A stretch of 64,000 nucleotides of DNA. Source: Candidatus Aminicenantes bacterium (lineage in GTDB: Bacteria > Acidobacteriota > Aminicenantia > Aminicenantales > UBA4085). Positions 44,284 through 60,310 of the stretch are shown piece after piece; the stretch's first letter is position 1, and each line of letters opens with the position of its first letter. The translations under genes were made by a program, and so were the position numbers. Under the pieces are notes generated by a model. The model did not search any database, was not told the origin of the DNA, and was given only the letters and a program-made list of their open reading frames with translations. The stretch is from positions 1 through 64,000 of the forward strand of contig JAPKZJ010000072.1 of assembly GCA_026393855.1 (NCBI GenBank). The letters are read 5' to 3'.

Positions 44284-44321
44284 CGAGCGAAGTGATTTGG
44301 TTTCTTATAATTGGCTTTCTC

Positions 44322-44598
44322 CCATTCTGCGTCGGGCCGTGAATCGGCTCGGTGTTTGGCCAACGGCGAAACCGCGCGGGTTTAGCCTTCCTGCGCACCT
44401 CCGCGAGGGAACCCAACGGGCGCCGAGGGATGTTTGAGCACGTGAAGATCAAACGAGAAAGAGACAGAGTGGGGGGACTATCGAGTTCGAAAGATCGAGC
44501 GTGCGGAGTTCCGCAGGCGCCGAGCGGAGAAGCGCGAGAAAGGCGTGAAAAACCCGCGCCGCCGGGCCAAATACCGAGCCGCCGGCCACGCAGAATGG
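44322..44598 (+). repeat. Dispersed giant-hairpin repeat, copy 1 (277 bases)
   Basis: Outer arms CCATTCTGCG (44322-44331) and CGCAGAATGG (44589-44598) pair perfectly. Next, CGGCTCGGTGTTTGGCC (44346-44362) pairs with GGCCAAATACCGAGCCG (17 pairs, one wobble), then GCGCGGGTT with AACCCGCGC. The core contains AACGGGCGCCGAGGG, TGTTTGAGCACGT and a perfect TGCGGA-GT-TCCGCA hairpin, also found in copy 2. It fills the 322-base gap between convergent genes. There is no U-tract after the stem, so it is not a simple terminator. Confidence 0.8.
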
Positions 44599-44605
44599 AA
44601 AAAAC

Positions 44606-47353
44606 TTATCGTTTTACCGTAATCAGGTTCCGCTTGCGCAATTCCTCCACCGCCGGCTTCCAGCCCCCCGGCGCAGCCCATAAATAATAAGAAAAGTACC
44701 GCCGCGTTTTCTGAAAGATGGGCACCCAGGGTTGGAACTCGGCGTAATAGTGGTTCGATTCGCCGTTGGAGGGGTGGTTCATCCACATGTGCAGGAATTC
44801 GGGCTCATCGACCGGGAAGGCGCCGACGAAGGCGAGGTCCTCGGTTTCGTCGTAGCCGGCGTTCCAGCCTTCCACGGGATAGAGCACTCGGCCGAAATAC
44901 TCCTCGGGCCGCATCCGGAATTCCGAGAGGCCGCCCTTTTCCGGCACGACGAAGAGGTCCTCGAGCCAATGCCGCTGGCCGAGCTCCAGGATCGGCTGCG
45001 GTCCGAGCATGTTGAGCTCGGGGTTGACGAAGTCCATGGCGAAGCGGACCTCAAGGAGCGGCGAGTCGCCGTAGAGGGTGAAGATCTTCTCCATGCGGTT
45101 GCCGAAATAGTCAGCTGTCATCCGGACACGCACGAACGTCCCTTCGGACCGGACGATCTCGGCCTCATAGACCTTGTGGGTTTCGATGCTGGCTTGGCCC
45201 AGGAAATCCTCGAACCCGCCGTAGGGATAGAAGCCGCGCTCGCGGAACGGCCGCCGGTCGGTGCTCGTTTCCTTCTCCGGCCAGAGCTTGAAGAGGACGT
45301 TGTCGCCCTTGGCCTTGATGGTGTATTCGATGACCCGCGCCCCCGTCGTCAGCAGGACGGCCTTGATGCGCGAGTTCTCCAGCCGGTATTCCATAATCCC
45401 GTCGCCGTTCAAGTCGACGGGCGTGCAGACGGCCCGGCCGGCTGCCGCTTCGACGCCGATCCGGCTCTTCGATTCGGCGCCCAGGGCCGTGACGACGGCT
45501 TCATAGCCGCCGGGAGGGAGGGTCAGCGCGACCTGCGTCTCGCTCCAGCCGCCCGCCGGGATGGTCGCTCGGACCTCGCGCTCGAAGACTTTTTTCCGAT
45601 CTCCGACGCGGTAAACCGCCACCCGGAAGGGGACCTCGGCCGCATCGGAGAAATTGTGGATGGCCACCGGCAGATCGACAGCCGGCGCTTGGCCGTAGAG
45701 CAGCGACGGCAGGGAGACCGCGGGCGGAAGATCGAGGATGGCCAGGGTTCGTTTTCTCCCCCCAGGCCAGGCGAATTCGACCAGGACGGGATTGGTCCGT
45801 CCCATCGCGTCTTGGCTCAAGGTTAGGCGGAAGCTCTCCATGGCCGGAGGGCCTGGGGCGAGGGTCGCTTCCCGATTCGCGCTTCCGACGACCGAGAGCT
45901 CCGGGCCCGTGCGGACCGAGAGCTTTCCGGCCAGGGCCTCCGGTCCTTCATTCGCCAGCCGGACCGTCAGGGTCCGGCCCTGGACTTCGGCCGCGAGCTG
46001 GACGGCGTCCCCGAAAGCGTCCTCCAAATAAGCCCGGTCGAGCCAAAGCATTTGCAGGGCGGATCGGAAGAGCCGCGGGCCCATCATCTTGCCCAGCGGC
46101 AGAATCCCGACCTCGCGCCGCTCGAGAATTGCCTTCCACATGGTTTCCCGGTTGAACGGCTCGCCCTTGGGTGTCAAGAGGACCATGGCGGCGGGGGCGT
46201 CCTCGCGGATCATCCCCGTCTGCAGGATAAAGGGCGTGTTCTCCTCGTCGGCCTGCCTCTTGTTGCCTTCGATGGCGATGACCCCGTCGTAGGCGAAGCG
46301 ATCGCATTCGGGGGCGAAGAGGGGACGGAAAAGATATCCCCCGCGCTCCTTGACGAACTTGATCCATTCCTCCTCGGTCGGCATGTCCTGGATCATGAGG
46401 CCGTCCCAGCTTCGCAAGCCGTAGGCGATCGTCCCCAGGCTGTGGGTGGCCTTGCCCGTGCCGACGTCCGTGACGACGTCCAGGCCGATCTTGCCCAGCC
46501 ATTCGGGAAGCTGGGGCTGGAGAAGAAAGTCCATATAGCCATTGAAAGTGAACCAATCGTTGCCTTGGTTCAGCCCCTTGGCGATGACTTCGAGCGGGTG
46601 GCCGGGGAAGCAGGTCACGCTGTGGAGGAGCGTGCCCGTCCCGAACCAGCCGCGGTGAAGGCCGTAGCGGGCGGTGACGTCGGCGGTGTCCGTGAGGAGC
46701 GAGGCGAACCGGGCTCGATCCTCAGGCTTGTCCGAGAGGACGACGAAAAGCCGCCGGGCCCCGTCCCGCAGAACGAAGGCGCTGAGGGGGGAATAGTCCT
46801 TGGCCCTTGACTGATGCCCCGCGCGGGGACTTTGCGGACCGGCCATCGCCGCCAGCCGGCGTCCGGCTTCGGACCCGAACGGCGAGAAGACGAGAAGCGG
46901 CCGGTCGGAATCGGCCAGGGCCGTATCGACCGCGGCCGGGGCGGGATCTTCGAGCCTCCGGACCGGCGCCGCCAGATACTCCGCCATGAAGCCTTCTTCC
47001 ATTTCCAAGCCGGGGAGCCCCAGCTCTTCCGCCGTGTCGCGCTTGGCCTGGGCGACGGCGGCCTCGACGTCGAGGGTGCTCATCTGGAACAGATTGCCGT
47101 ACTGGTTCCAAACCCACGCCAGATCATGCCAATAATTGGTATATCCGCTGAACGCGCCCGCGGTTCGAATGAGGGGAGACGGCGCCGTTCCTGCCGATGG
47201 CGCGGCCCGCTTGAAGCGGCCCAACGGCCCTTCGGCTTGCGTCTTTTCCGCGGTTGCGGCCCGAAGGCCCGAGGCCGCGATCCCCAAGGCCAAGACTGAC
47301 AACGCGACGACAAGTCCTGAAGCGCGTCTGCGGGGGCGGTCGAAATTGGGCAT
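44606..47353 (-). CDS. Large exported protein of unknown function with C-terminal mutarotase-like beta-sandwich
   Basis: About 915 residues from ATG 47353 (SD GGGAGGG; ATG 47389 less likely). The signal peptide (VVALSVLALGIAASGLRA) sends it out of the cytoplasm. The first roughly 450 residues (GYTNYWHDLAWVWNQYG, FNGYMDFLLQPQLPEWLG, RGGYLFRPLFAPECDRF) match no family I recognise. The middle holds Ig-like beta-sandwiches (GPPAMESFRLTLSQDAMG, LPPGGYEAVVTALG). The last 250 residues (RIKAVLLTTGARVIEYTIKA, FYPYGGFEDFLGQ, WMNHPSNGESNHYYAEFQPW) look like a galactose-mutarotase-like or DUF5107-type sugar-binding fold. A carbohydrate-active role is plausible; no catalytic residues can be named. It is monocistronic. 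Confidence 0.65.
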   Translation of the reverse strand: MPNFDRPRRRASGLVVALSVLALGIAASGLRAATAEKTQAEGPLGRFKRAAPSAGTAPSPLIRTAGAFSGYTNYWHDLAWVWNQYGNLFQMSTLDVEAAVAQAKRDTAEELGLPGLEMEEGFMAEYLAAPVRRLEDPAPAAVDTALADSDRPLLVFSPFGSEAGRRLAAMAGPQSPRAGHQSRAKDYSPLSAFVLRDGARRLFVVLSDKPEDRARFASLLTDTADVTARYGLHRGWFGTGTLLHSVTCFPGHPLEVIAKGLNQGNDWFTFNGYMDFLLQPQLPEWLGKIGLDVVTDVGTGKATHSLGTIAYGLRSWDGLMIQDMPTEEEWIKFVKERGGYLFRPLFAPECDRFAYDGVIAIEGNKRQADEENTPFILQTGMIREDAPAAMVLLTPKGEPFNRETMWKAILERREVGILPLGKMMGPRLFRSALQMLWLDRAYLEDAFGDAVQLAAEVQGRTLTVRLANEGPEALAGKLSVRTGPELSVVGSANREATLAPGPPAMESFRLTLSQDAMGRTNPVLVEFAWPGGRKRTLAILDLPPAVSLPSLLYGQAPAVDLPVAIHNFSDAAEVPFRVAVYRVGDRKKVFEREVRATIPAGGWSETQVALTLPPGGYEAVVTALGAESKSRIGVEAAAGRAVCTPVDLNGDGIMEYRLENSRIKAVLLTTGARVIEYTIKAKGDNVLFKLWPEKETSTDRRPFRERGFYPYGGFEDFLGQASIETHKVYEAEIVRSEGTFVRVRMTADYFGNRMEKIFTLYGDSPLLEVRFAMDFVNPELNMLGPQPILELGQRHWLEDLFVVPEKGGLSEFRMRPEEYFGRVLYPVEGWNAGYDETEDLAFVGAFPVDEPEFLHMWMNHPSNGESNHYYAEFQPWVPIFQKTRRYFSYYLWAAPGGWKPAVEELRKRNLITVKR

Positions 47354-47529
47354 GGAGGATCCCTCCCGATGGATTTCGTTCCGGCCCATTCTATCAGATT
47401 CCCGGAGCTTCCGGAGAGGGCCGGTCCCGGGCCGGAATTGCGGCGCCGGCGTGGCTCGGCTACAATGATTCCCTGAGTGAGAATTTCCCGTCCGCCGAGC
47501 GTCTGGATTAAATGAGGAGGGATGGGACG

Positions 47530-48462
47530 ATGGCCAGCGAGCTGATAAACCTCGAGATTCCGCGGCGCTTCCGACCCTGGCTCCGGATCGGGACCTGTTC
47601 CTGGAAGTACGATTCCTGGAAGGGCCTCATCTACGACTCGGAGAAAACTTATAAGGCCCAGGACTACCTTCCCGACTACGCCAAGCGCCTGGGCTCGGTG
47701 GAGGTCGACCAGTGGTTCTGGAGCCTGTTCCCGGCCGGCATCCGCCTGCCCGAACCGCGCGACGTCCGCCGCTACGCCGAGGCCGTCCCGGACGATTTCG
47801 TCTTTACCGTCAAGGCGCCTAATGCCCTGACCCTGACCCATTTCTACGCCAAGCTGGACGGAGCCGATAAGGCTTTCGCCGGCCGGCCCAACAGCTCTTT
47901 CCTGAAGATCGACCTGCTCGAACGGTTCCTCGACCGGTTGGCTCCCTTCGGCAAAAAGCTGGGGCCGATCATGTTCCAATTCGAATACCTGAACCGGCAG
48001 AAGATGCCGAACCGCGACGCTTTCCTGGAGGCGATGGGCGGATTTCTGGACAAAGCCCCCAAGGGCTTCGCCTATGCCCTCGAAACCCGCAACCCGAATT
48101 ACTTGGGCCCGGAGCTTTTCGACTTTCTCAAGGGTCGCTCCATCGGGTTCGTCTACCTGGACGGATATTACATGCCGCCGATCGGGGGCATCTTCGAGGC
48201 CCACCATCCCCGGACTGCGCCGTTCAATGTGGTTCGCCTGCACGGCGGCGACCGGGGCGAGATCGAGAAGGAGACGGGCGAAGTCTGGAACAAGATCGTA
48301 GCTCCCAAGCCCGAAGCGTTGAAAGCCGCGGCGGCGATCACGGTTGAGAACATCCGTCATAAAATCGTCACGCACCTCAACGTCAACAATCATTTCGAGG
48401 GCAGCGCGCCCCTGACGATCGTCCGCTTCCTCGATGAGCTGAAAAAAGCGACGGCGGGCTGA
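47530..48462 (+). CDS. DUF72 (YecE-like) TIM-barrel protein
   Basis: 310 residues from ATG 47530, just after GAGGAGGG; ATG 47512 lies upstream of that SD. DUF72 marks: LRIGTCSWKYDSWKGLIY, VEVDQWFW, DDFVFTVKAPNALTLTHF, GPIMFQFEY, FAYALETRNPNYL, VRLHGGDRGEIEKETG and NVNNHFEGSAPLT. The fold resembles a UV-endonuclease/xylose-isomerase barrel, but the activity is unknown. It is convergent with the FAD oxidoreductase. Confidence 0.85.
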   Translation: MASELINLEIPRRFRPWLRIGTCSWKYDSWKGLIYDSEKTYKAQDYLPDYAKRLGSVEVDQWFWSLFPAGIRLPEPRDVRRYAEAVPDDFVFTVKAPNALTLTHFYAKLDGADKAFAGRPNSSFLKIDLLERFLDRLAPFGKKLGPIMFQFEYLNRQKMPNRDAFLEAMGGFLDKAPKGFAYALETRNPNYLGPELFDFLKGRSIGFVYLDGYYMPPIGGIFEAHHPRTAPFNVVRLHGGDRGEIEKETGEVWNKIVAPKPEALKAAAAITVENIRHKIVTHLNVNNHFEGSAPLTIVRFLDELKKATAG

Positions 48463-48470
48463 TTCAGATT

Positions 48471-48722
48471 CTTGGCCCAATTCCGGGAAGGGCGGCCCGG
48501 AGTACCGGCCCGGCAACGCTTTGCGTAGTCCTCGCCAGGACGAATTCCTATTCGGTCCTCGCGAGAGCGGCTTCGGGCTCTAGCGATTTCGTCGTTGGCC
48601 GATCTTGCTGCGTTGTTCCCTCGCCACGATCCCGGCAGTAGAAGGAGCCGATCACGCTGCATGATACCGTTGCCCCCAACGGCACACCCCGAACTGATTG
48701 GCCTCCCCGGAATTTGGCGAAG
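48471..48722 (+). repeat. Long inverted-repeat element in a convergent gap (different family)
   Basis: Arms of 21 bases (48471-48491 and 48702-48722) pair at 18 positions around a perfect AATTCCGGG/CCCGGAATT core. They bracket about 210 bases rich in short hairpins. TTTTTTT follows at 48727-48733, so the right side may also terminate plus-strand transcripts. The sequence is unlike the other three repeats. The 318-base gap otherwise holds nothing I can identify. Confidence 0.55.
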
Positions 48723-48780
48723 ATCCTTTTTTTAGGCCCGGCGCGGGCGCAAAGCGAGCGCGGCCGCGGCCGTAAAACGC

Positions 48781-50409
48781 TCACCACGTCTTCATGATCT
48801 CGGCAAAGCACTGCAAGCCGCTCGGGACGACGGCGGCGTATCCGCCGCCGGGGCTCGTCCAAGCGCCTGCAAGATAAAGGTTTTTGATCGGGGTCTTCGG
48901 AGCCATGCGCTGGGGCCCCGAATTGCCGACGGTCTGGTCCCAGCCGTAGATCGCGCCGCGATAATTGCCCGTATAGCGGACGTTGGTCAGCGGGGTGGCG
49001 ATTTCCTTGACCTCGACGGCGCCCCGCAGTCCCGGCAGGAGAGTCCGCTCGACGGCTTCGATCATGATGTCCGCCAGGCGGTTTTTCTCGGCCCGGTAGG
49101 CGTCCTTCCGCCCGGCGAAATAATCGGCTTCGTACTTCAGCCATGGGTCGTAGCCTTGCAGGGTCATGATCGAAAGGGTGTTCTTGCCCGCCGGCGAGTA
49201 ATCCGGGAAAAGATTGTCGTAGAGAGTCAGGCCGAAGCCATTGGCGACATCGCCCCGGACGCAGGCCGCGTAATCGGACTCGATGTCGTAGCCGGAATTC
49301 TTGAAGATCTCCGTGTCTTTGATCCCGGTTTCCTTGATCAAGTTCTTTTTGAGGCCGAGAAAGACCTGAAAAGTGGACAGACTCGGCGTCATCTTGTCCA
49401 TCCGGGCCAGGTAATCCGCGGGGCGCTCGGCGGGCGGCACCATCTTATGGAACAGGTCGTAGGCGTTGGCGTTGGAGACGACGACCCGGGCCCGATACTC
49501 CCGCCCGTCGACGGTCTTGACGCCTTCCGCGGCCTTGTCCCGGACGAGAATCGATTCGACCGGAGAGGACAGCTGGACCGTGCCGCCGCGATCGGCGATG
49601 AACTTGGCCAGGGCGTTGCTGATGGCCTGGGATTTGCCGTGCGGGTAGTACCCGCCCTGGGTCAGGTAGCCGATGGTGGGCAGGGCGTAATAGAACGAGG
49701 ACAGCTTGGACGGCGGAAGGCCGTAGTAGCCCCAGAGCGAAGAGACGAGCCCCTTGAGCTTGGGGTTCTTGACCCGGACGTCGACGAGCGTGCTCCACGG
49801 CTTGCCGAACGCCTTCATCAGGTGGGGAAAGAGCTTGGGGTACTCGGAAAAGGGGGGGGGAGCGGAAGCGGCGGACAATGCGTTGATGTCGCCGGCAATT
49901 CCCGTCATGTCATCGAACAGGGCTTGAATGCCCTCTTTTTCTTCAGGAAATCGATCCGTCAGCAGCTTGATATAGCCGGGGACGTCGCGGGCCGGAACGC
50001 GAATGTCGTCGTCCGGGTAGATGGCCCGGTAGATGTTGGGGTGCGGCGCGAAGGCGACGTCCTTGATCTCCGGAAAGCCCGGGATAAGGTTGTGCACGCC
50101 GTCCCGTTCGCCCACCGTCGTGGAGTGCAGGGAGGCGTCGAAAACAAACCCGCCCGGCCGCTTGAACGTCGTCGCATAGCCGCCCGGCTTGGAGTGCTTC
50201 TCCAGGACGAGCACTTTGAAGCCCTGGCGGGCGAAAGCTGCGCCGCAGCTCAACCCGCCCAGCCCGGCGCCGATGACGATCGCGTCGTAGGCGCCGCCCG
50301 CTTGCGGGCCCCGGCCTCTGGGAAAAGCCGTCCAGTCCCTTCCGGCCAGGGGGATTCCGGCCAGGACGGTCTTTAAAAAATCGCGGCGATCGAGCCGATT
50401 GGGGGTCAT
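48781..50409 (-). CDS. Tat-exported FAD oxidoreductase, phytoene-desaturase/retinol-saturase-like
   Basis: 542 residues. The Tat signal is RLDRRDFLKTVLAGIPLAG. The dinucleotide-binding fold follows (AIVIGAGLGGLSCGAAFARQG, VLVLEKHSKPGGYATTF), and a C-terminal FAD motif is visible (IKNLYLAGAWTSPGGGYAAVV). The middle region and length match CrtI/RetSat-like desaturases and saturases that act on polyprenoid or carotenoid double bonds. No carotenoid genes are nearby, and export by Tat as a folded flavoprotein is unusual for CrtI, so the substrate is open. It is divergent from gatE. Confidence 0.82.
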   Translation of the reverse strand: MTPNRLDRRDFLKTVLAGIPLAGRDWTAFPRGRGPQAGGAYDAIVIGAGLGGLSCGAAFARQGFKVLVLEKHSKPGGYATTFKRPGGFVFDASLHSTTVGERDGVHNLIPGFPEIKDVAFAPHPNIYRAIYPDDDIRVPARDVPGYIKLLTDRFPEEKEGIQALFDDMTGIAGDINALSAASAPPPFSEYPKLFPHLMKAFGKPWSTLVDVRVKNPKLKGLVSSLWGYYGLPPSKLSSFYYALPTIGYLTQGGYYPHGKSQAISNALAKFIADRGGTVQLSSPVESILVRDKAAEGVKTVDGREYRARVVVSNANAYDLFHKMVPPAERPADYLARMDKMTPSLSTFQVFLGLKKNLIKETGIKDTEIFKNSGYDIESDYAACVRGDVANGFGLTLYDNLFPDYSPAGKNTLSIMTLQGYDPWLKYEADYFAGRKDAYRAEKNRLADIMIEAVERTLLPGLRGAVEVKEIATPLTNVRYTGNYRGAIYGWDQTVGNSGPQRMAPKTPIKNLYLAGAWTSPGGGYAAVVPSGLQCFAEIMKTW

Positions 50410-50551
50410 GGGATGAATACTCCTTGGCCGTTTGATTGTATGCCCAATTCCCGACGGTCCGCAAGCGGGGCGACGCCCCCCGGGCGGTCGAACCTTGACA
50501 GCCGGCGGAGGGGCGTGTAAAAAGGTCTTTCGCGGCCAAGGACGCGACTAC

Positions 50552-52489
50552 ATGGCTTATGACTTTGTTTTCAAACCTTTTGCCGACATGACGCCCGAGG
50601 ACTACGCCGCCGTCGGCTTCAAGTCCGGGCTCGAGATCCACCAGCAGCTCCTGACCGAAAAGAAGCTGTTCTGCCGCTGCCCGGCCGGGCGCTACAGCGA
50701 CGCCTACGACGCGGAGATCCTCCGCCATATGCGTCCGACCTTGTCCGAGCTGGGGGAGTACGACGGCACCGCGCTGATGGAGTTCAAGACCAAAAAAGAG
50801 ATCATCTACCGGATCAATCGCGAGACCGTCTGCACCTACGAGATGGACGACACGCCGCCGTTCATGATCGACGAGCAGGCCCTGGATATCGCCTTAAGCA
50901 TCGCCATGCTCTACGAGTGCGTCATGGTCGACGAGCTCCACATCGCCCGCAAACAGTATCTGGACGGGAGCATCCCGACCGGCTTCCAGCGGACGACGAT
51001 CGTCGGTGTGGACGGCCATATCCCGTACCGGGACCGGACGATCCAGATCATCCAGCTCGGGCTGGAGGAGGACGCCTGCCGCGAGGTCAGCGACATCGGC
51101 CACCGCCGCACTTACCTGACCGATCGGCTGGGCATGCCGCTCATCGAGACGGTCACCGGCCCCGACATGCGCACCCCGCTGGAGGTGGCCGAGGTCGCCC
51201 AGATCCTGCGCCGCCTGGTCCGCAGCACGGGCCGGGTCCGTACGGGGCTCGGGGCCGGCCGCGAAGACGTCAACGTCAGCGTCACCGGCGGCACCCGTAT
51301 CGAGATTAAAGGCGTGCCGCGCATCCCGCGCATCCCCCTGCTGACCTATAACGAAGCCATGAGGCAGTGGAACCTGCTCCGCCTGCGCGAGGAGCTGGCC
51401 CGCCGGGGTATCGTCGCCGAGGCGTTCAAGGCCGGAACCGAGGACGTGACCAAAGTGGTCCGGAGGACTAATTATCTGCCTCTGCAGGCCGCCCTCAGCA
51501 GCGGGATGACCGCCTTCGGAATCGTCTTGAGGGGGTTCCGCGGCCTGCTCAACTGGCAGACCCAGACCGGAACGTATTTCCACCAGGAGATCTCCGACCG
51601 CGTCCGGGTCGTGGCCTGCCTGACCCTGCTGCCCAACATCGTCCATTCGGACAGCTTGGGCGAAGGCCTTGCGGGCGGCGAATGGCCGGCCGTCAAGAAG
51701 ATCCTCGGCGCATCCGACAACGATGCCGTCGTGGTCGTCTGGGGGTCCGAGGCCGACGCCAAGCTGGCCGCCCAGGAGACCATCCTGCGGGCCAAAGAGT
51801 CGACGATCGGCATTCCCTCCGAGACCCGCCAGGCCCTGCGGGACGGGACGAACGGATTTGAGCGTATCCTGCCCGGCCCGGACCGGATGTACCCGGACAC
51901 GGATCTCCCGCCCAAGCAGATCGCGGCCGACCGCCTGGCCTGGCTCCAGGCCCGCCTGCCGGTGTCCATCCTGGTCCGCGAGGCCTGGTACCGCGAGATC
52001 GGCGTCCCCAAGGACTTGGTCGAACAGCTCTCCATGTCGCCGTTCGCGCCCGTCTTCGAGACCGCCGTCAAGCGGAGGGGGATCGATCCCAAGCTGGCCG
52101 CGGTCATCCTCGTCCATCATCCCAAGCGGCTTCGGCGCAAGGGGATCACCTCGGCGGCCGGAACGACCGAAGCGGGCGAGGTCTTGGACCAGATCTTCGA
52201 AGCCCTGCAGAACCGACGACTCTATAAGGAAGGCGTCCTGGACTTGCTGGAGGCGGCCCTGACTTCGGGCCGGCCGGTGCCGGTCCTTTGGCCGGAGTTC
52301 ACGGCGGAGGATACGCCGGACCGGGACCAGGCCCGCATCGCCGGCCTGCTGACCGGGCCCCGCTTCCTGGACGCGGGCCGGCGGGAACGGCGGGCCATGG
52401 GCCTGCTGATGGAGAGCTGGCGCGGCCGCACCGACGCCGCGGCCGCCGCCCGGGGCATGGCCGAAGCCCTGCGGAAGGTCGCCCCATGA
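50552..52489 (+). CDS. gatE: Glutamyl-tRNA(Gln) amidotransferase subunit E
   Basis: 645 residues from ATG 50552 (MAYDFVFKPFADM; AAGGA about 10 bases upstream). It activates Glu-tRNA(Gln) with ATP and transfers ammonia to give Gln-tRNA(Gln). It has the GatB/GatE cradle (GFKSGLEIHQQLLTEKKLFCRC, GSIPTGFQRTTIVGVDG, RTYLTDRLGMPLIETVTGPD, TGLGAGREDVNVSV, RIEIKGVPRIPRIPLL). It also carries the GAD-type insert specific to GatE (about 390-490, ending RMYPDTDLPP) and a C-terminal helical tail. Length and insert separate it from bacterial GatB. It overlaps gatD by 4 bases. GatDE is known as the archaeal system, so its presence in an otherwise bacterial segment is notable. Confidence 0.93.
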   Translation: MAYDFVFKPFADMTPEDYAAVGFKSGLEIHQQLLTEKKLFCRCPAGRYSDAYDAEILRHMRPTLSELGEYDGTALMEFKTKKEIIYRINRETVCTYEMDDTPPFMIDEQALDIALSIAMLYECVMVDELHIARKQYLDGSIPTGFQRTTIVGVDGHIPYRDRTIQIIQLGLEEDACREVSDIGHRRTYLTDRLGMPLIETVTGPDMRTPLEVAEVAQILRRLVRSTGRVRTGLGAGREDVNVSVTGGTRIEIKGVPRIPRIPLLTYNEAMRQWNLLRLREELARRGIVAEAFKAGTEDVTKVVRRTNYLPLQAALSSGMTAFGIVLRGFRGLLNWQTQTGTYFHQEISDRVRVVACLTLLPNIVHSDSLGEGLAGGEWPAVKKILGASDNDAVVVVWGSEADAKLAAQETILRAKESTIGIPSETRQALRDGTNGFERILPGPDRMYPDTDLPPKQIAADRLAWLQARLPVSILVREAWYREIGVPKDLVEQLSMSPFAPVFETAVKRRGIDPKLAAVILVHHPKRLRRKGITSAAGTTEAGEVLDQIFEALQNRRLYKEGVLDLLEAALTSGRPVPVLWPEFTAEDTPDRDQARIAGLLTGPRFLDAGRRERRAMGLLMESWRGRTDAAAAARGMAEALRKVAP

Positions 52490-53874
52490 ACGAACCCAAC
52501 CTTTATAAAGGCTACAAAGGCCGGGCCCTCGAGGTCCTGCAGCGCTTCGAAACCGCGGTCTGGTGTGACGCCATGTTTATCACCCCGACAGGGCGCTACA
52601 CCGGCATCGTCCTGCCCCGGTCCGAGACCGCGGACCAGTTCCATATCGTGCTCAAGCTGCGCTCGGGGTACAACATCGGCATTCGGGCCGACCGGGTGAC
52701 CGGCGTCGAGATCTATGGCCGCAAGGAAGCCCACTACAAGATCCCCGAGAAGGCCTTCCCATACGATCCGGTCAAGCCCAAGGTCAAGCTGCTCGGCACG
52801 GGCGGCACCATCGCCAGCCGGCTCGATTACCGAACCGGGGCCGTCATCCCGGCCTTCTCGCCCGGCGAGCTCTACGGTTCCGTGCCGGAGCTGGCCGATA
52901 TCTGTAACCTGGAGACCGAGAAGCTCTTCGGCGTCTTCAGCGAAAACATGGGCCCCGAGCAGTATATCGCCACCGCCAAGGCCATCGGGCGGGAGATCGA
53001 GAAGGGCGTCCAGGGTGTCGTCATCGGCCATGGCACGGACACGATGCACCACACAGCGGCCATCCTGTCGTTCATGGTCCAGAACTCGCCGGTCCCGATC
53101 GTCATGGTCGGCTCCCAGCGCTCCTCGGACCGGCCCTCGTCCGATGCCGCGCTCAACCTGATGCACAGCGTCAAGACGGCGGCCGAGAGCGACATCGCCG
53201 AGGTCATGGTCTGCATGTTCGGGCCGACCTCCGACACGTACGGCCTGCTTCACCGCGGGACCCGGGTCCGGAAGATGCACTCGAGCTACCGCTCGACCTT
53301 TCGGACGATCGGGGACATCCCCATCGCCATGGTCAGCCGGGAGAAGATCACGCCGCTGCGGCAGGACTACAAGCGCCGGCGCCGGGACCGCGAGGTGGTC
53401 ATCAACACGGCCTTCGAGGAGAAGGTGGCCATCGTCTATTACTACCCCAACATGAAGCCGGACATGATCGATTCGCTGATCGACAACGGCTACAAGGGGA
53501 TCATCATCGCGGGGACCGGACTCGGCCACGTCAACAAGCCGCTCTATCCCGCGCTCAAGCGGGCCCAGGACAAGAAGATCGCCGTCTATATGACCGTTCA
53601 GACCCTGTGGGGCTACGTCCAGATGTACGTCTACGACACCGGGCGCGACATGATGGAGCTGGGGGTCGTGCCGGCGGCCAATCTTCTGCCCGAAGTCGGC
53701 TACGTCAAGCTGGCCTGGGCCCTGGGGCAAACGAGCGACTTGGACGAGGTTAAGAAGATCATGCTGACGCCCATCGCCGGCGAGATCACCGAGCGCGAGC
53801 CGTCCAACGGCTACCTCATCTTCCAGGGCGGTATCCCGGAAGTCGAGGAGTTCATCTCCAAGTATCGGAAATAA
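52486..53874 (+). CDS. gatD: Glutamyl-tRNA(Gln) amidotransferase subunit D (asparaginase-like)
   Basis: 462 residues from ATG 52486, within the ATGA overlap with gatE. The N-terminal SH3-like domain (about 1-85, MNEPNLYKGYKGRALEVL) is followed by an L-asparaginase-type domain: GTGGTIASRLDYRTGAV (first catalytic Thr), GHGTDTMHHTA (second Thr/Asp pair) and MVGSQRSSDRPSSDAALNL. It releases ammonia from glutamine or asparagine for GatE. It has normal archaeal GatD length and motif order. The SH3-like domain rules out an ordinary asparaginase. It is followed by repeat copy 2. Confidence 0.94.
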   Translation: MNEPNLYKGYKGRALEVLQRFETAVWCDAMFITPTGRYTGIVLPRSETADQFHIVLKLRSGYNIGIRADRVTGVEIYGRKEAHYKIPEKAFPYDPVKPKVKLLGTGGTIASRLDYRTGAVIPAFSPGELYGSVPELADICNLETEKLFGVFSENMGPEQYIATAKAIGREIEKGVQGVVIGHGTDTMHHTAAILSFMVQNSPVPIVMVGSQRSSDRPSSDAALNLMHSVKTAAESDIAEVMVCMFGPTSDTYGLLHRGTRVRKMHSSYRSTFRTIGDIPIAMVSREKITPLRQDYKRRRRDREVVINTAFEEKVAIVYYYPNMKPDMIDSLIDNGYKGIIIAGTGLGHVNKPLYPALKRAQDKKIAVYMTVQTLWGYVQMYVYDTGRDMMELGVVPAANLLPEVGYVKLAWALGQTSDLDEVKKIMLTPIAGEITEREPSNGYLIFQGGIPEVEEFISKYRK

Positions 53875-53885
53875 TCGGCGCTTCT

Positions 53886-54162
53886 CCCATCTCCGGGGCC
53901 TGCGTCACGATGTTCGGCCCGGCGGCGCGGGTTTTTTACGCCTTTTTCTCGCTACTCTTCTCGGCGCCTGCGGAACTCCGCACTTTCGATCCCCCGAATC
54001 TGCATGATTCCCCCACTCCGTCTCGTTCCCAATGATCGTTACGTGCTCAAACATCCCTCGGCGCCCGTTGGGTCCCCTCGAAGAGGGGCGGAAAAAGGCT
54101 AAACCCGCGCGGTTTCGCCGTTGGCCGAACATCATGCCGCCTGACCACCCCCCGGAGATGGG
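53886..54162 (-). repeat. Dispersed giant-hairpin repeat, copy 2 (277 bases, opposite orientation)
   Basis: Outer arms CCCATCTCCGGGG (53886-53898) and its exact complement (54150-54162) pair over 13 bases. Next, GATGTTCGGCC pairs with GGCCGAACATC (11 bases), then GCGCGGGTT with AACCCGCGC. The core is the same as copy 1 read on the minus strand, including TGCGGA-GT-TCCGCA. The arms share no sequence with copy 1 yet pair fully. It fills the 326-base gap between the convergent gatD and the four-helix protein. Confidence 0.8.
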
Positions 54163-54200
54163 GAAATACCGTCAGAGAAGGAACGGGTGGTTTTCCCTTT

Positions 54201-54632
54201 CTAGCGCTGGACGGGGGGGATGTATCCGGAATCCCGGTCCATGGTGATGTCCCGCCGGGCCGTCGTGATCGTCACGGTGAAGCCGGCGATGACGTCGAAC
54301 AACGACATCAGGGCCAGGATGAAGAAGGTCGAGGTCCCGGCGCCCTTGACGATGATGAACTCGATCAGGAAGATGATGAAGACCAGGGTCGAGAGGATGT
54401 GGTCGACGATGGCGGCCTGCGAAGTCCGGGTCGACTTGAGGACCTCGATGAACAGAAAGACCAGGCCGATGATGACGAACAGATCGCCCACCGTCATGAA
54501 CCAGACGGCGCCCGACATCAGCTTGAACTTGAAGAGCAGGTTGTTCATGATCTCGCCCTTGCCGAGCAGGATGAAGATGTCGATCAGGATCAGCAGAAAG
54601 CCGAACATCGGGATCTTTTTTAAGGTTTTCAT
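54201..54632 (-). CDS. Four-helix membrane protein, unknown function
   Basis: 143 residues from ATG 54632, preceded by AAGGAGG with 6-base spacing, a near-perfect SD. Four hydrophobic helices (about 8-24, 40-63, 80-97, 101-123) and a short charged C-terminal tail (TTARRDITMDRDSG) are visible. No family is recognised. The 69-base upstream region is shared with the divergent phosphatase gene. Confidence 0.75.
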   Translation of the reverse strand: MKTLKKIPMFGFLLILIDIFILLGKGEIMNNLLFKFKLMSGAVWFMTVGDLFVIIGLVFLFIEVLKSTRTSQAAIVDHILSTLVFIIFLIEFIIVKGAGTSTFFILALMSLFDVIAGFTVTITTARRDITMDRDSGYIPPVQR

Positions 54633-54681
54633 AAGGTCCTCCTTATCAGTGGCGCCATTATAACAGAGAAAGAAATCCCTG

Positions 54682-54687
54682 TATAAT
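54682..54687 (+). promoter_or_regulatory. -10 box of the PP2C/SpoIIE gene, possible leaderless transcript
   Basis: Consensus TATAAT (54682-54687) ends 14 bases before the ATG at 54702, leaving a 5' leader of about 8 bases with no SD. TTATAA at 54658-54663 is a weak -35 (18-base spacer). Confidence 0.45.
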
Positions 54688-54701
54688 AGGCCTCGAACGC
54701 C

Positions 54702-57035
54702 ATGACCCAGGCTAAGCCGACCGATCCCTTCGCCGTCACGGGGCGGAAGACGATCGCCGTCTCCCCGCTGCATGCCCCCGTCCATCGCCTGATCCTGCTG
54801 GCTGCGGCCGGAAGCGCGGCCGCCTGGCTCGTCCAGACCTTCTTCGGTACGGCCCGCCTTTTCCCGATCGCCGCGGCCGCGGCCTTCCTCGGTATCGCCT
54901 GGGCGGCGGCCTTGCGCCTCCTTTTTCTGGACCTCAAGGGGCGCGGATTCTGGGGCGTCTGGGTGGCGGCGAGTGTCGTCTCCGTTCTCGCCACCAAGGC
55001 CGGCGGCAGCCTGTGGGTCACGGGAGCGGTTTTGTCCGGGGTTTTCCTCCTCGCCCGCCGCTTTCGGCCATTCTCCTACCTGACCCACCGCAGCCGGGCC
55101 CGCATTTTCTTCGTCTCTTTGGCCGCCTGGAGCGCCCTGACCTGGGGCTGGTTCGTCGGCGGCCGGGAGCTGTTCGCCGCCTCGGGCCCCGCCGCCGGGT
55201 ATCTCGTCAACCTTCTCCGCTATGCCTGGATCAGCCTGCAAGCCTTCTGGACCCTGACCTTGCTCCACCTGTTCTTCAAAGCCCGCCTCCACTCGCTCAA
55301 GATCCGGCCAAAGCTGGCGATCAGTACGCTCCTTATCGCCGTCGTCCCGCTCGTTTGGCTGCTGGTGATGGGGGGAGTGACGATGATCAGCATCGTCGGC
55401 GAGATGCAGGCGGCCCGGGCCGGGCTCGTGCTTCAAGACTGGGCCGGGCTGGCCTTCGAGAATCCGGATCTGGCTCGGACGCTTTCGGGAGCATCGTTCG
55501 TCCTCGGCGGGCCCGGCGGACAAGGAGCGTCCGGGATGCCGCCGGCCTGGTGGCCCGCGATCGAGTCGGCGGCCGGAAAGCCCAAGAACGCGGAGGCGAT
55601 CGGATCGGCCGCCAAGGGTCCCGGCTTCCTGCTCCGGGTCGACCGTGAAGTGTGGGGCATCAGCCGAGGTCCCGCGGCCCGCTGGACCGGAGGATTTCGG
55701 ATCGACGAACGATTTCTGGGCCGGATGGCCCGCATCATCCACGCCGACGTTGAGCTTAGGCCCGAAAATCCGCTACGCGAGGCGGCCTTGTCCGAGGCCA
55801 AAGAAGGGGCCCCCGCGCCGGAGGATCGGATAAAGCCCGTCTCGATCGGCCGGCTCGACCCGTCCCGGCCGGCGAACGAGAATTGGCGCATCGGCACGAT
55901 CCATCTCGACCTGCTCGAATACCGTGACGGCAAGTTTGCCGTTTCAACCGCCTTGCTGACGGTGCGGACGTCTCCGGGGCTGGTCTGGGATGAGGTCTAT
56001 TCCCGCAGCGATCTCGTCAGCCGGATCATCGTCGGCGCCCTGATCATCCTGGGCGCCACCCTCCTCACGCTCGAAGCGTTCGTGCTGGCCTTCGGCATTC
56101 GGATCACGGCCGGCATCACCTCGGCCGTCAGGGCCCTCCATCGGGGTGCCCGCCGAATCGCCGCCGGCGATCTTGAAACGCCGATCGAAATCCCCAACGA
56201 GGATGAGCTGGGCGACCTGGCCGCCGCGATCAACGAGATGGCGGCGGGCGTCAAGCGGGGCCGGGCCGAAGCCTTCCAGCGCGAAGCCCTGGAGCGGGAG
56301 CTGGCCGTAGCCCGCGAAATCCAGGAGCGCCTTCTGCCCCACGTCATGCCGGCCGTGCCGGGATTCGAGATTTCGGGCACCAGCCTGCCCAGCCAGCAGG
56401 TGGGCGGCGATTATTTCGACTTCCTCGATTTGGAGGATGGTCGCCTCGGCATTGCCATCGCCGACGTTTCGGGCAAGGGCATTCCGGCCGCTCTGCTGAT
56501 GGCCAACCTGCAGGCCATCCTGCGAGGCCAGGCCGATGAGCGCGGCGACGTCTCGGCCATTCTGGCTCGGGTCAACAACTACCTGGTCCGATCCACCGAT
56601 GCCCATATGTTCGCCACGTTCTTCTATGGTGTCCTCGATCGGGCCGGCGGCCGATTCCTTTCTTCCAACGCCGGGCATAACCCGCCGCTCCTGCTGCGCG
56701 CGGACGGCCGTCTGGAGCGCTTGTCCGCGGGCGGGTTGGTGCTGGGGTTCCTGGCCAACCAAGCGTATATCCAACAGACGACGAATTTGGAGCCCGGCGA
56801 TGTCGTGGTTCTCTTCACCGACGGGATCACGGAAGCGTCCTCACCCGGTTCCCCGGATCGGCCGGATCGCTTTTTCGGCGAGGAGCAGCTGATCCAGGCG
56901 GTGCGGGAGTGCGCCGGGCGGACGGCGGGCGAGATCCAGACCGCCATTCTGAACGCAGTGGCCGGCCATACGGCGGGCTCGCCCCAGGGCGACGACATCA
57001 CCCTGGTCGTCATCAAGCGGCGGGCGGGGTCATGA
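54702..57035 (+). CDS. Membrane HAMP-PP2C (SpoIIE/RsbU-type) serine phosphatase
   Basis: 777 residues. About seven hydrophobic helices occur in the first 230 residues, then an extracytoplasmic segment (about 235-430), another helix (about 435-462), a HAMP domain (ALHRGARRIAAGDLETPIEI, DELGDLAAAINEM) and a coiled linker (EALERELAVAREIQERLLP). The PP2C/SpoIIE catalytic domain has GGDYFDFLDLEDGRLGIAIADVSGKG (metal-binding Asp residues, listed in part), SSNAGHNPPLLL, VLFTDGITEA and GDDITLVVI. Such proteins dephosphorylate anti-anti-sigma factors in partner-switching cascades. No anti-sigma or STAS gene is adjacent. The DUF457-like gene follows after 1 base. Confidence 0.9.
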   Translation: MTQAKPTDPFAVTGRKTIAVSPLHAPVHRLILLAAAGSAAAWLVQTFFGTARLFPIAAAAAFLGIAWAAALRLLFLDLKGRGFWGVWVAASVVSVLATKAGGSLWVTGAVLSGVFLLARRFRPFSYLTHRSRARIFFVSLAAWSALTWGWFVGGRELFAASGPAAGYLVNLLRYAWISLQAFWTLTLLHLFFKARLHSLKIRPKLAISTLLIAVVPLVWLLVMGGVTMISIVGEMQAARAGLVLQDWAGLAFENPDLARTLSGASFVLGGPGGQGASGMPPAWWPAIESAAGKPKNAEAIGSAAKGPGFLLRVDREVWGISRGPAARWTGGFRIDERFLGRMARIIHADVELRPENPLREAALSEAKEGAPAPEDRIKPVSIGRLDPSRPANENWRIGTIHLDLLEYRDGKFAVSTALLTVRTSPGLVWDEVYSRSDLVSRIIVGALIILGATLLTLEAFVLAFGIRITAGITSAVRALHRGARRIAAGDLETPIEIPNEDELGDLAAAINEMAAGVKRGRAEAFQREALERELAVAREIQERLLPHVMPAVPGFEISGTSLPSQQVGGDYFDFLDLEDGRLGIAIADVSGKGIPAALLMANLQAILRGQADERGDVSAILARVNNYLVRSTDAHMFATFFYGVLDRAGGRFLSSNAGHNPPLLLRADGRLERLSAGGLVLGFLANQAYIQQTTNLEPGDVVVLFTDGITEASSPGSPDRPDRFFGEEQLIQAVRECAGRTAGEIQTAILNAVAGHTAGSPQGDDITLVVIKRRAGS

Positions 57036-57036
57036 G

Positions 57037-57561
57037 ATGAGCCCTATCGCCCATCTCGGGATCGGACTCCTCGGCTGGCAGGTCTTCGATCGCAAGAAAA
57101 CGCTGGGTACGCTGGGGATGTTCTTCCTGGCGGCCAATCTGGCCGACATCGATTTCCTATTTTATATGGTCTTCGGGCCCAAGCCGATCTTCATCCATCA
57201 GTACTACACCCACAACGTCCCGTTCATCCTGGCCGGCTGCGGCCTGTTGGCGTTCCTCCTGCCGCGAGGTCGGAGCCGTTGGGGCCTTCTTCTGACGGGG
57301 CTCTCCCATCTGCTCCTGGACATCATCGTCATCGACACGCTCAAGCCGATCGGCATGCGGCTCTTCTTCCCGTTCTCCGACACTTACTACAATCTGGGCT
57401 TTTTCCCCTTCCTCCGTCGCGTCCCCAGGAAGGTGATGACGAGTCCGCACAACTTCCTGGTCCTCGGCCTGGAGTTCGCCTGCTTCGTCCTGCCGATCTG
57501 GCTGCTGTTCCGCCGCCGCTTAGCCCGGCGCTTTTCCTCGCGCGCCTTCTGGCGGCTGTAA
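57037..57561 (+). CDS. DUF457-like membrane-bound metal-dependent hydrolase
   Basis: 174 residues, starting 1 base after the phosphatase stop and so probably co-translated. It has the YdjM/DUF457 layout: an N-terminal MSPIAHLGIG with His, ANLADIDFLFY (Asp-x-Asp), HQYYTHNVPFIL (His run) and LTGLSHLLLDII (HxxxD), set between four hydrophobic helices. The metal ligands are all present, but the substrate of this family is unknown. It is followed at once by repeat copy 3. Confidence 0.78.
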   Translation: MSPIAHLGIGLLGWQVFDRKKTLGTLGMFFLAANLADIDFLFYMVFGPKPIFIHQYYTHNVPFILAGCGLLAFLLPRGRSRWGLLLTGLSHLLLDIIVIDTLKPIGMRLFFPFSDTYYNLGFFPFLRRVPRKVMTSPHNFLVLGLEFACFVLPIWLLFRRRLARRFSSRAFWRL

Positions 57562-57580
57562 CCAATGGTTTTTTGTTCGT

Positions 57581-57910
57581 TTCCCGATTCCGGGAAAAAC
57601 ATGCGGTTCGGAGTGTCGGCCGACGGCGAAACCGCGCGGGTTCCGGCTTTTTACGCCTCTCCGCGAGGGCACCCAACGGGCGCCGAGGGCTGTTTGAGCA
57701 CGCGATCATCTAACGGAATCGAAACGGAGTGGGTGGTCTCCAAGACTGGACGATCTCGAATGCGCAGTTCCGCCCTCGCGGGGACGGTCGGAGCGACGTC
57801 CCTACGAGGACTGCGAAGCGCTGGAGGCGCCGAGCGGATTGGCGTAAAAAGGAGTGGTGAACCCGCGCCGCCGGGACGACACTCCGGACCGTGTTTCCCG
57901 GAATCGGGAG
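57581..57910 (+). repeat. Dispersed giant-hairpin repeat, copy 3 (330 bases, longer variant)
   Basis: Outer arms CCCGATTCCGGGAAA (57583-57597) and TTTCCCGGAATCGGG (57894-57908) pair perfectly over 15 bases. Next, CGGAGTGTCG (57609-57618) pairs with CGACACTCCG, then inner CGGCG/GCGCGGGTT elements pair as in copies 1 and 2. The core keeps AACGGGCGCCGAGGG and TGTTTGAGCACG. About 50 extra bases (around 57770-57825) replace the small TGCGGA hairpin. It ends 6 bases before the stop of the convergent S9 gene. Confidence 0.8.
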
Positions 57911-57916
57911 GTGAAA

Positions 57917-60310
57917 TTAGTTTTTCAGGTTTGTCTCGAACAGCTTGAAGATCCTCTTGTACTCGTCGGCCCAGGAATCGGCGTTGACGAAGCTGTGGTT
58001 CTCACTCGGATAGAGAGCCAGCTCCCAGTTCTCCTTGCGCAACTCGATCAGCCGTTGGGCCAGCCGGATGCTGTCCTGGACGTGGACGTTGGTGTCCACC
58101 ACCCCGTGGCAGATGAGGAGGGCGCCTTTCAGGCCTTGGGCCAGATAGAGGGGCGAGCTCTTCTTATAGGCCTCGGCGTCCTTTTGCGGCAGGTTCAGGA
58201 TATCCACGGTGTAGCCGGCGTTGTAGGCGGCCCAATCGGTCACCGGCCGCAGGGCCGCTCCCGCCTTGAACGCCTCGGGAGCTGTGAACATCGCCATCAG
58301 CGTCAGGAAGCCACCGTAGCTGCCGCCATAGCAGCCGATGCGGCCGGCGTCGACCCCGCAGGACTCGACCAGGAACTTGGCCCCATCGACGACGTCGTTC
58401 AGATCCTTTCCGCCCATGAACCGGTAGACGCCCGTGCGGCAATCCCGGCCGTAGCCGGACGAGCCCCGGTAATCGAGGTCCAGGACATGGTACCCGGCGG
58501 CCGCGAGCAGGTTATGGAACATGTATTCCCGGTAATAGGTGGACCAGCCCTTATGGGCGTTTTGCAGATATCCCGCGCCGTGGATGAAGATCACGGCTGG
58601 ACGTTTGGGGTTGGCCGAGGCGGGCCGGAAGAGACGAGCGTAAATATCGACGCCGTCGCGGGCCTTGAAGCTCAAAACTTCCGGTTCCATCCAAGCATAA
58701 GAGCGGAACTCCTCCGTCGTGGAAAGGGTCAGGGTCCGGGCGGCGGCCCCCGGCTTGGCGGGCTGGACATAGAGCTCGCCCGGCTTGGTTGCCGTGCTGA
58801 AGATCGAGGCCAGCGTCGTCTCGTCCGGCGAGAGGGATACGGCATGCTGGCCGGTCATCGCAGTTAGCCGGGTCCTGGGTCCACCCTGGGCGGGCATAAC
58901 ATAGTAGTGGAGCTCGCCGGGATGGACTTCGCTCGAAGTGAAGTAGATCTTCGTTCCGTCGGCCGATAGGACGGCGTCGCGCACCTCGAAACGGCCCGAG
59001 GTCAATTGGGCCCTTTCTTTTCCTTCGGCGGAAACTCGATAGATATGGGCGAACCCGTCTTTCTCGGAGACATAAACGACGGCCTTGGCGTCGGGCGTCC
59101 AGGCGACCGAAGTCAGCCCGAGATCGCCGACCCAGGCGTCGTCATGGATCGTTTCCAGCGGCAGGAGGGTTGCGGAAGCGGGATCGAGCCGGTAGAGCCA
59201 GTCGTCCTTGCGGTCGTCCGTCCGCACCTGGACCAGCCCCCAGCGTCCGTCGGGCGACCAGCCCAGGAAGGACTCGGAGAGCTTCCTCTCGCCCTGCCCG
59301 AAGTCGAGCCAGCGGACCTCGCCCGTGGTGGTCGCCATCAGGCCCATCCGCCCCGACCGGGTCCAAGAATACGCCGCCTTCGGCCGCGACGGGATATCCT
59401 CGGTGTAGCCGGACCTCGTGACATAGTTGGGGACGATAGTTTGGCGGATGTCGGCCACAGGCTCGGAGATGGTGAAGACCACTTGGCTCTCGTCCGGCGA
59501 AAGGTCCTGTCCGGAGACAGTCTGATTCTCGGCCAGGGGGAACGGCCGCCGGCGGGCCATCGGACGGGCGCCCGTGCCCGTCGGGGGCCCCACTGGCATT
59601 TGGCCGCGGCCTTCGCCCCCGACCCGTTTAAACATTTGGAAGAGCTCCAATTGCTGGTCCTGGTACCATTTGTCGATATCGGTCGTCTTGCGCGGTTCGA
59701 CGGCGGGGGGCCGCTTGGCGAACGATGTCATCTGCCGCAGCTCGCCGCCGTCTAAGGCCATAGCGAAGACGTTGTCGCCGACGGTATAGACGACTTTCTT
59801 TTGGTCGAACGAGAATCGGACGCCCGCCTCCCGATCGTCGGTGGCGAGAAGCGGTCGGACGGCCCCTGTTTTCAAATCCATGAGTTTGACGTCGCCGCCT
59901 TCGACGAGGAGGGCGCGCTTGCGGGCCTTGTCGGGGACGGGCTGAGCGCCGCCGCCGAAGCCGCCAAATCCACGGCCGCGGCCCGGGGCCGAGGCGGGAG
60001 GCCGCTTCATCATCGCCTCGGCCGTAATCTTGCGCGGCGCTGCATCGGCCTTGCCGAAGGCATAAAGCTCGGCCGCCGGGGCGCCGGGTTTCTTCCACCG
60101 GAAGTAGAGGACTTGGCCGTCATAGGACCACTGCAGGTCCGAAGGGGTGGTGCCGATAAGCTCCTCGCCCCGCATGATGTTGTCGATGGTCAGGCGGAAC
60201 GGACCGGGCGCCGCAGCTTGGCCGGGCAAGGGCGCCGGCGCCAGAACGGCGACGATCGCCACAAGCGCAGCGGCGAGAATCGGAGCAAGGGCGGATCGGG
60301 TTCGGGCCAT
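57917..60310 (-). CDS. Exported S9 (prolyl oligopeptidase/DPP4-like) serine peptidase
   Basis: 797 residues. Signal peptide (about 1-33), N-terminal beta-propeller-like domain (about 40-530, with SPDG-type strands such as LGWSPDGRWG and AVLSADGTKIYFTSS), then an alpha/beta hydrolase domain: HGAGY (oxyanion region), Ser664 in GGSYGGF (nucleophile), Asp in HGVVDTNVH and His in SENHSF. It cleaves short peptides outside the cytoplasm, probably dipeptides or tripeptides from N-termini. A Gly/Arg-rich low-complexity insert (GRGRGFGGFGGG) resembles that in the M28 peptidase of this window. It is divergent from the M1 peptidase gene. Confidence 0.9.
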   Translation of the reverse strand: MARTRSALAPILAAALVAIVAVLAPAPLPGQAAAPGPFRLTIDNIMRGEELIGTTPSDLQWSYDGQVLYFRWKKPGAPAAELYAFGKADAAPRKITAEAMMKRPPASAPGRGRGFGGFGGGAQPVPDKARKRALLVEGGDVKLMDLKTGAVRPLLATDDREAGVRFSFDQKKVVYTVGDNVFAMALDGGELRQMTSFAKRPPAVEPRKTTDIDKWYQDQQLELFQMFKRVGGEGRGQMPVGPPTGTGARPMARRRPFPLAENQTVSGQDLSPDESQVVFTISEPVADIRQTIVPNYVTRSGYTEDIPSRPKAAYSWTRSGRMGLMATTTGEVRWLDFGQGERKLSESFLGWSPDGRWGLVQVRTDDRKDDWLYRLDPASATLLPLETIHDDAWVGDLGLTSVAWTPDAKAVVYVSEKDGFAHIYRVSAEGKERAQLTSGRFEVRDAVLSADGTKIYFTSSEVHPGELHYYVMPAQGGPRTRLTAMTGQHAVSLSPDETTLASIFSTATKPGELYVQPAKPGAAARTLTLSTTEEFRSYAWMEPEVLSFKARDGVDIYARLFRPASANPKRPAVIFIHGAGYLQNAHKGWSTYYREYMFHNLLAAAGYHVLDLDYRGSSGYGRDCRTGVYRFMGGKDLNDVVDGAKFLVESCGVDAGRIGCYGGSYGGFLTLMAMFTAPEAFKAGAALRPVTDWAAYNAGYTVDILNLPQKDAEAYKKSSPLYLAQGLKGALLICHGVVDTNVHVQDSIRLAQRLIELRKENWELALYPSENHSFVNADSWADEYKRIFKLFETNLKN

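Follow-up and report, generated by a model that had tools for sequence, protein, structure and literature searches.

A stretch of 64,000 nucleotides from Candidatus Aminicenantes bacterium (order Aminicenantales; GenBank assembly GCA_026393855.1, contig JAPKZJ010000072.1, positions 1 to 64,000; hereafter the window) contains three copies of a giant hairpin whose outer arms vary in sequence from copy to copy, each pair of arms being self-complementary. This locus raises the question of whether such a stem is kept as DNA or as RNA, and of what kind of element it is part. The hairpins were confirmed at 44320-44602 (+ strand), 53882-54164 (- strand) and 57616-57880 (+ strand), and pairwise alignment showed 81-89% identity or complementarity over stretches of about 90-130 nt, in agreement with a preliminary description of this DNA that had recognized three related copies. 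Each copy folds as a single long hairpin, with -153.8 kcal/mol (z = -7.5) for copy 1, -153.9 kcal/mol (z = -7.6) for copy 2 and -194.6 kcal/mol (z = -9.1) for copy 3, and in no case was a dinucleotide shuffle equally stable. Overall, it is probable that these hairpins are non-autonomous transposons, that is, miniature inverted-repeat transposable elements (MITEs), of the order Aminicenantales that carry a structured RNA. The main result is that selection at the DNA level on the ends of the element was separated from selection at the RNA level on its core.

In order to place the window copies among their relatives, the genome from which the window derives (G000; 3.68 Mb, 144 contigs) was covered by searches and by individually retrieved stretches, on which all genome-wide statements are based. 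A 20-nt string from the core gave 37 matches compared to 0 for its reversed control, and a covariance model (R1) built from an alignment of 18 clean copies (A1) found on the order of 100 copies (131 matches including opposite-strand duplicates). The elements are ~130-520 bp in length, dispersed, intergenic and without a transposase gene. Flank alignment placed their boundaries at GG..TC and GA..CC, with short A/T-rich direct repeats just outside. The outer 15-20 nt are complementary in 84 copies (~80% Watson-Crick), and such terminal inverted-repeat pairs are present in other genera too. A/T-rich target duplications of 8 bp, matching at 7 or more of the 8 positions, flanked 32 of the 78 own-genome copies, compared to the 7.5 expected from mispaired 5' and 3' flanks, and none of 2000 permutations reached the observed count; perfect 8/8 flanks were found in 9 of 78 copies, with 0.69 expected. 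Examples are GGTTTTAT (L053), AATAAAAG (L050), TATTCTTT (L172) and CTTTTTAA (L064). Perfect or near-perfect duplications were also found in other genera (AAAAAATT in G011, AAAAGCGT in G005 and AAAAATTA in G028), and a null scan of those loci returned 0 of 854 matches; under strict criteria a clear end together with a duplication was seen at 5 of 48 loci outside the own genus, two of the five being the same copy. At the gatD locus of a close relative (L211, 95% GatD identity) the same convergent gene pair is present, and the element that lies there in the window (copy 2) is absent. Given the terminal inverted repeats, the constant 8-bp target duplication, the short length, the lack of a transposase gene and the many intergenic copies, the outer arms are, on sequence criteria, the terminal inverted repeats of a short non-autonomous transposon (MITE).

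This assignment changes how the variation among the arms is to be read. The preliminary description had regarded the arms as unrelated sequences and had argued that arm sequences would stay constant in a plain terminal-inverted-repeat transposon, so that self-complementary arms of differing sequence would mean that the stem itself is selected. The self-complementarity was confirmed; however, the arms belong to recurrent classes common to many genomic copies, and they are terminal inverted repeats with 8-bp duplications that fall into several subfamilies. Since a single transposase has to recognise the two ends, the outer arms are expected to change as a pair. Over the 15 outermost pairs, the own-genome copies showed 58 G-U and 50 A-C mismatches, a strand-neutral pattern as expected for DNA and not the bias of an RNA stem. 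The argument for a selected stem from the outer arms thus falls away, and it is the inner stem to which the idea applies.

The core of the element, about 170-230 nt in length, behaves differently from the ends. Copies in further genera and families of the order retain this interior, and everything outside it has changed. An alignment of 27 diverse cores (A2) showed a rod-like stem with fixed unpaired motifs and freely varying helices between them, the facing motifs being TTTAGCC / GGCGTKAAAAA, TTCGAGGG / CGAGAA and TGTYTGAGC / GAGTTC. Covariation was examined on 51 distinct cores with 24 consensus pairs (alignment A4). In this alignment 94.7% of cells were paired compared to 81.7% in shuffles, 18 of the 24 pairs had compensatory changes on both sides, and the covariation score was 0.455 compared to 0.202 when shuffled; not one of 500 shuffles reached any of these measures. 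Sliding the partner by 1-3 columns reduced pairing to 38-59%. Since A4 was fitted to its own model and shuffling takes no account of phylogeny, an independent strand test was made. If a hairpin is selected as RNA, G-U is tolerated on its strand and A-C is not, whereas a DNA palindrome or template-switch repair should show both equally. The core wobbles were 63 G-U compared to 7 A-C (p = 2e-12), with 15 pairs leaning toward G-U and 1 toward A-C, and a structure-free version of the test, in which the two strands of each core were scored symmetrically, gave 58 G-U compared to 7 A-C (p = 4e-11); because the copies are related and the cells are not independent, these p values are optimistic. In own-genome cores the counts were 247 G-U and 41 A-C, part of which reflects a few wobbles inherited by descent. 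This caveat does not touch the contrast between the ends and the core of the same copies, which stands without the p values.

Judged by this pattern of substitution, the core is a genuine structured RNA with an inner stem kept by selection. The preliminary description had left the choice between a structured RNA, a processing or decay block and a DNA cruciform undecided; for the core, the covariation is far above that of shuffles, and the strand-biased wobbles favor an RNA and argue against a cruciform. The covariance-model search that it had proposed recovered the family genome-wide and across the order. Bacterial MITEs are usually viewed as inert leftovers of insertion sequences (IS), whereas the present MITEs carry an RNA fold that is conserved throughout an order, and selection on DNA (the ends, no strand bias) could be told apart from selection on RNA (the core, 9:1 strand bias). 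Comparing G-U with A-C offers a simple and general way to tell whether the hairpins of a repeat family are RNA structures or DNA palindromes. The core would be an addition to the known RNA families, and it raises the question of why a selfish element keeps a structured RNA. A search of Rfam 15 yielded no family at the gathering threshold for the window, nor any at a relaxed E <= 5 for copy 1. The TGTYTGAGC/GAGTTC loop was also weighed as a kink-turn, a reading that was set aside because the bulge does not match the standard motif cleanly.

To describe how widely the core occurs, a covariance model (R2) was run against the class and the phylum. It matched 56 of 142 genomes of the class, all of the same order among the matches listed and from several families, and among 396 genomes sampled across the phylum matches were found only in the order Aminicenantales. 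Many matching genomes hold at least 15 copies and others few, with single or very few copies in G004 and G070. Presence is patchy even within genera: G021 and G028 are congeners, one with and one without the element. Ends and cores of different classes are combined with one another, class A ends being found with at least two core types. Some copies lack the large core and keep GGCC-CGGCGAAATCGCGA...CGAAGCCGCC-GGGCC, full ends and target duplications; among these core-less siblings the duplication is exact in L210 (TTTTATTT) and near-exact by eye in L291 and L292. Because they retain full ends and target duplications, the core is probably dispensable for transposition, and it seems to be cargo that lies outside the transposition machinery.

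As regards the enzyme that could move such elements, ISL3 transposases (DDE_Tnp_ISL3, PF01610) were found in 7 of 30 relatives searched. The ISL3 element of G021 is 1306 bp long, has ends GGTTCATC... and is flanked by an exact 8-bp duplication (GAAAAAGG); the reading frame of its transposase is interrupted by a stop. An IS in G026 has ends GGCTCTTCAGCCAAAAGTGTGG. The ends of RNA-carrying elements of G025 and G024 are identical to those ISL3 ends at 15/20 and 14/20 positions, respectively, and 14/20 identity has a background rate of ~2e-4 of positions. The end GGCTCTGTGACGAAAAGTGGGG matched 11 times in G019 and 14 times in G024, with several facing pairs ~130-410 bp apart, of which some contain the RNA core and others do not. 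GGNTC ends with an 8-bp duplication, the signature of ISL3-type ends, are found in the RNA-carrying elements, and mobilisation of the family by an ISL3-type transposase is likely.

The mechanism that would join these results is as follows. An ISL3-type transposase acting in trans, now absent from the draft genome, would cut and insert the element by way of its end repeats; when a new end subfamily arises, both ends would change together, since one transposase binds both; and transcription of the element, most likely driven from neighbouring genes as copy 1 showed no promoter or terminator of its own, would keep the inner stem under selection as RNA. Our best guess, held with low confidence, is a cis-acting RNA that, as part of host transcripts, limits the damage of insertion or alters mRNA ends. 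The most likely role, and also the weakest step, which we put forward only tentatively and as doubtful, is that the RNA makes an insertion tolerable or even useful by providing a stable segment at gene 3' ends (protection or processing of mRNA ends, or insulation of transcription). By rough gene calls, 27 elements lie between two gene 3' ends, 42 between co-directional genes and 9 between divergent genes.

Several observations weigh against this account of RNA-carrying MITEs. We infer transcription of the core from strand-biased wobbles alone. Relative to the upstream gene, the element lies in either orientation almost at random (44 + and 36 -, from crude gene calls), which lends little support to a cis role in 3' untranslated regions (UTRs). 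No convincing duplication (below 7/8) flanks 46 of the 78 copies, copies 1 and 2 among them, which is expected for old copies but is no proof. No exact empty site was found, the gatD intergenic DNA of L211 being too diverged to show a junction. In profile searches, neither PF01610 (ISL3) nor PF00872 (IS256-type) was present in the own genome, and its single DDE_Tnp_1 transposase (PF01609) was rejected as a partner, as its ends (CAGGASTTACCCC) are unrelated. Finally, the ends of the own genus agree with the known ISL3 ends of the relatives at only 9-12/20 positions, and the ISL3 assignment is therefore better supported for some relatives than for the own genome, in which ISL3-type mobilisation may nevertheless have taken place. 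An end-pattern search of the own genome gave, among the matches listed, only close pairs or single ends and none at an IS-like distance.

The RNA-carrying MITE has to be weighed against readings that shift the place of selection. In one of these, the element is a palindrome at the DNA level, its pairing produced by hairpin extrusion or by template-switch correction during replication, with no RNA selected. The whole element is indeed near-palindromic on either strand (copy 1, -153.3 kcal/mol on the reverse strand compared to -153.8 kcal/mol), and its outer ends show no strand bias. However, a DNA process without strand preference does not account for the G-U excess of the core by either way of scoring, nor for the unpaired motifs TGTYTGAGC...GAGTTC, CGAG and TTTAG...CGTTAAAAA that are fixed order-wide, and we consider it improbable. 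The core may also be a host RNA, regulatory or housekeeping and essential in trans, that was secondarily enclosed by transposon ends, with the MITEs as recent carriers. Its conservation across the order with several end types and its low copy number in G004 and G070 would fit such an origin, while the patchy presence of the core is unlike that of an essential RNA, and a rough look at low-copy loci (reading-frame lengths and starts only) revealed no evident common neighbour gene; this reading is unlikely, if slightly less so than the DNA palindrome. A more serious possibility, although we would not bet on it, is that an order-wide, undescribed RNA family travels as transposon cargo, the same core being re-housed among several ISL3-type end sets, such that the RNA would be the selected unit, the ends replaceable vehicles, and the RNA's own function, such as the shielding of host transcripts or the rendering of insertions harmless, the force behind its spread to ~100 copies per genome.

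Two further readings place the RNA in the machinery of mobility or deny it any special status. RNA-carrying elements of the IscB/TnpB omega type exist, HEARO and IscB omega RNA being structured RNAs associated with transposons, and the core, a structured RNA with conserved loops that travels along with the element, could by analogy be a guide-like or transposase-bound component. We regard this as very unlikely: copy 1 has no Rfam match, HEARO/omega RNA included, even at the relaxed E-value, the mode of insertion differs in that clear 8-bp duplications and end repeats indicate cut-and-paste of the DDE type, and core-less siblings with target duplications exist. Least credible of all is that the hairpins are intrinsic terminators or simple repeats of the REP/BIME kind at gene ends. 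Although the hairpins are stable and their sites cluster at gene 3' ends, a promoter and intrinsic terminator scan of copy 1 found nothing, and no consistent T-run follows the stem. The REP/BIME repeat is a palindromic unit of 20-40 nt (PMC3733652), whereas the present element is ~290 nt long, with end repeats and 8-bp target duplications that are foreign to REP.

Taking the elements as RNA-carrying MITEs, the known systems closest in kind are bcr1, BOX and QMITE. The repeats bcr1-bcr18 of the Bacillus cereus group are dispersed, intergenic, 100-400 bp long and present in up to ~130 copies per genome; bcr1-3 are MITE-like, and bcr10 and bcr18 have conserved RNA structure and are transcribed within UTRs (PMC3446304, PMC6542083). 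The presence of bcr3 in a transcript has been correlated with a longer mRNA half-life in B. cereus (PMC3446304). The likeness, drawn from descriptions and not from sequence comparison, is in dispersed intergenic MITE-like repeats, some with conserved RNA structure. However, bcr mobility is tied to a TTTAT motif and bcr repeats are confined to one species group, whereas the Aminicenantales elements have GG..CC end repeats with 8-bp duplications, and one and the same RNA core is found throughout an order between end repeats that differ. QMITE of Coxiella burnetii has direct repeats of 7-9 bp, inverted repeats of 23-29 bp, a core and a transcript predicted to form a long stem (PMC10969869), which is the same layout; the QMITE2 core is 113-145 bp, whereas the Aminicenantales core is longer and shows covariation and strand-specific wobbles across many genera. 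The BOX, RUP and SPRITE repeats of Streptococcus pneumoniae form stems, are bunched and are inserted into one another (PMC10969869); they share with the present elements the nesting of stem-forming repeats and differ in host and modules, as judged from their description. IS of the ISL3 family share the GGNTC ends and the 8-bp A/T-rich duplication, as shown for the G021 element, but the RNA elements lack a transposase gene, and no ISL3 transposase gene was found in the window's genome. What sets the Aminicenantales elements apart from bcr, QMITE and BOX is one RNA fold conserved across an order, interchangeable ends and a measured strand-specific selection. No description of them was found in the literature searched, most subscription journals and preprints being outside its reach. 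The RNA-carrying MITEs probably represent a new, modular family with a putative RNA function and a putative transposase.

In the window, the preliminary description had located the copies correctly but had drawn them too short. With terminal inverted repeats, inner arms and RNA core included, copy 1 spans 44312-44604 (+ strand; covariance-model score 327.6 bits) and is flanked by CTTATAAT (44304-44311) and CTTATCGT (44605-44612), a degraded duplication that matches at 6/8 positions. Its RNA core (CGGCGAAACCGCGCGGGTTTAGCC ... AACGGGCGCCGAGGGATGTTTGAGCACG ... GCGGAGTTCCGCAGGCGCCGAG ... GGCGTGAAAAACCCGCGCCG) lies at 44363-44570 (+ strand), where conservation and covariation are order-wide; R2 matched the equivalent region of L044 with 143.4 bits. 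Copy 2, which is inverted, spans 53877-54170 (- strand; 323.4 bits), between the gatD stop codon (~53874) and a convergent reading frame, with its core at 53905-54129 (- strand; R2 match of 146.5 bits, E 1.2e-33) and no clear target duplication in its flanks (5/8). Copy 3 spans 57574-57917 (+ strand; 276.5 bits) between TGGTTTTT (57566-57573) and TAGTTTTT (57918-57925), a target duplication matching at 7/8 positions, and its core lies at 57615-57887 (+ strand; R2 match at L057:1556-1828, 69.2 bits). This core and the copy as a whole are longer because a second dispersed repeat, a 51-nt hairpin module (CCCTCGCGGGGACNGTCGAAGCGACGTCCCTACGAGGACTGCGAAGCGCTG; ~57773-57823, + strand), has been inserted.

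The 51-nt module occurs at 50 places in the genome at <=3 mismatches, compared to 0 for its reversed control. It (CCCTCGCGGGGACNGTCGAAGCGACGTCCC...GCGCTG) is often present twice per element, in a symmetric arrangement ~147 bp apart, and was also seen in elements whose core had escaped the first probe. A third module of ~95 nt (ATTCCGAAGGCGC...ATTGATATCACCACCCC...GCGCCTTCGGCTGCATG), which forms a hairpin of its own, replaces or interrupts the apical part in L006, L024, L032, L036 and L037. At G000:C92:4360-4403 (in L027), a minimal palindrome of ~50 nt that consists of element ends only (GTTCTTCTCCCGATTCCGGGAAAC...GGAAACGAAC) lies directly 3' of a full copy, from which it is separated by TTAAT(AAAG) repeats.

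The genes neighbouring the elements in the window include those for an AMIN-domain protein, GatE and GatD, a HAMP-domain SpoIIE phosphatase, a membrane protein resembling YdjM and a peptidase of family S9, with no functional link among them. The adjacent genes at 50432-53874, with GatB/GatE-catalytic and GatD domains, represent an archaeal-type GatDE amidotransferase in a bacterium; close relatives of this GatD are found in Ignavibacteria and other bacterial phyla. Elsewhere in the window, tandem DNA repeats were observed at 6938-8662 with a period of ~126 nt (42 codons), the size expected for WD40-like protein repeats, and at 9003-10124 with a period of ~102 nt (34 codons), the size expected for TPR-like protein repeats.

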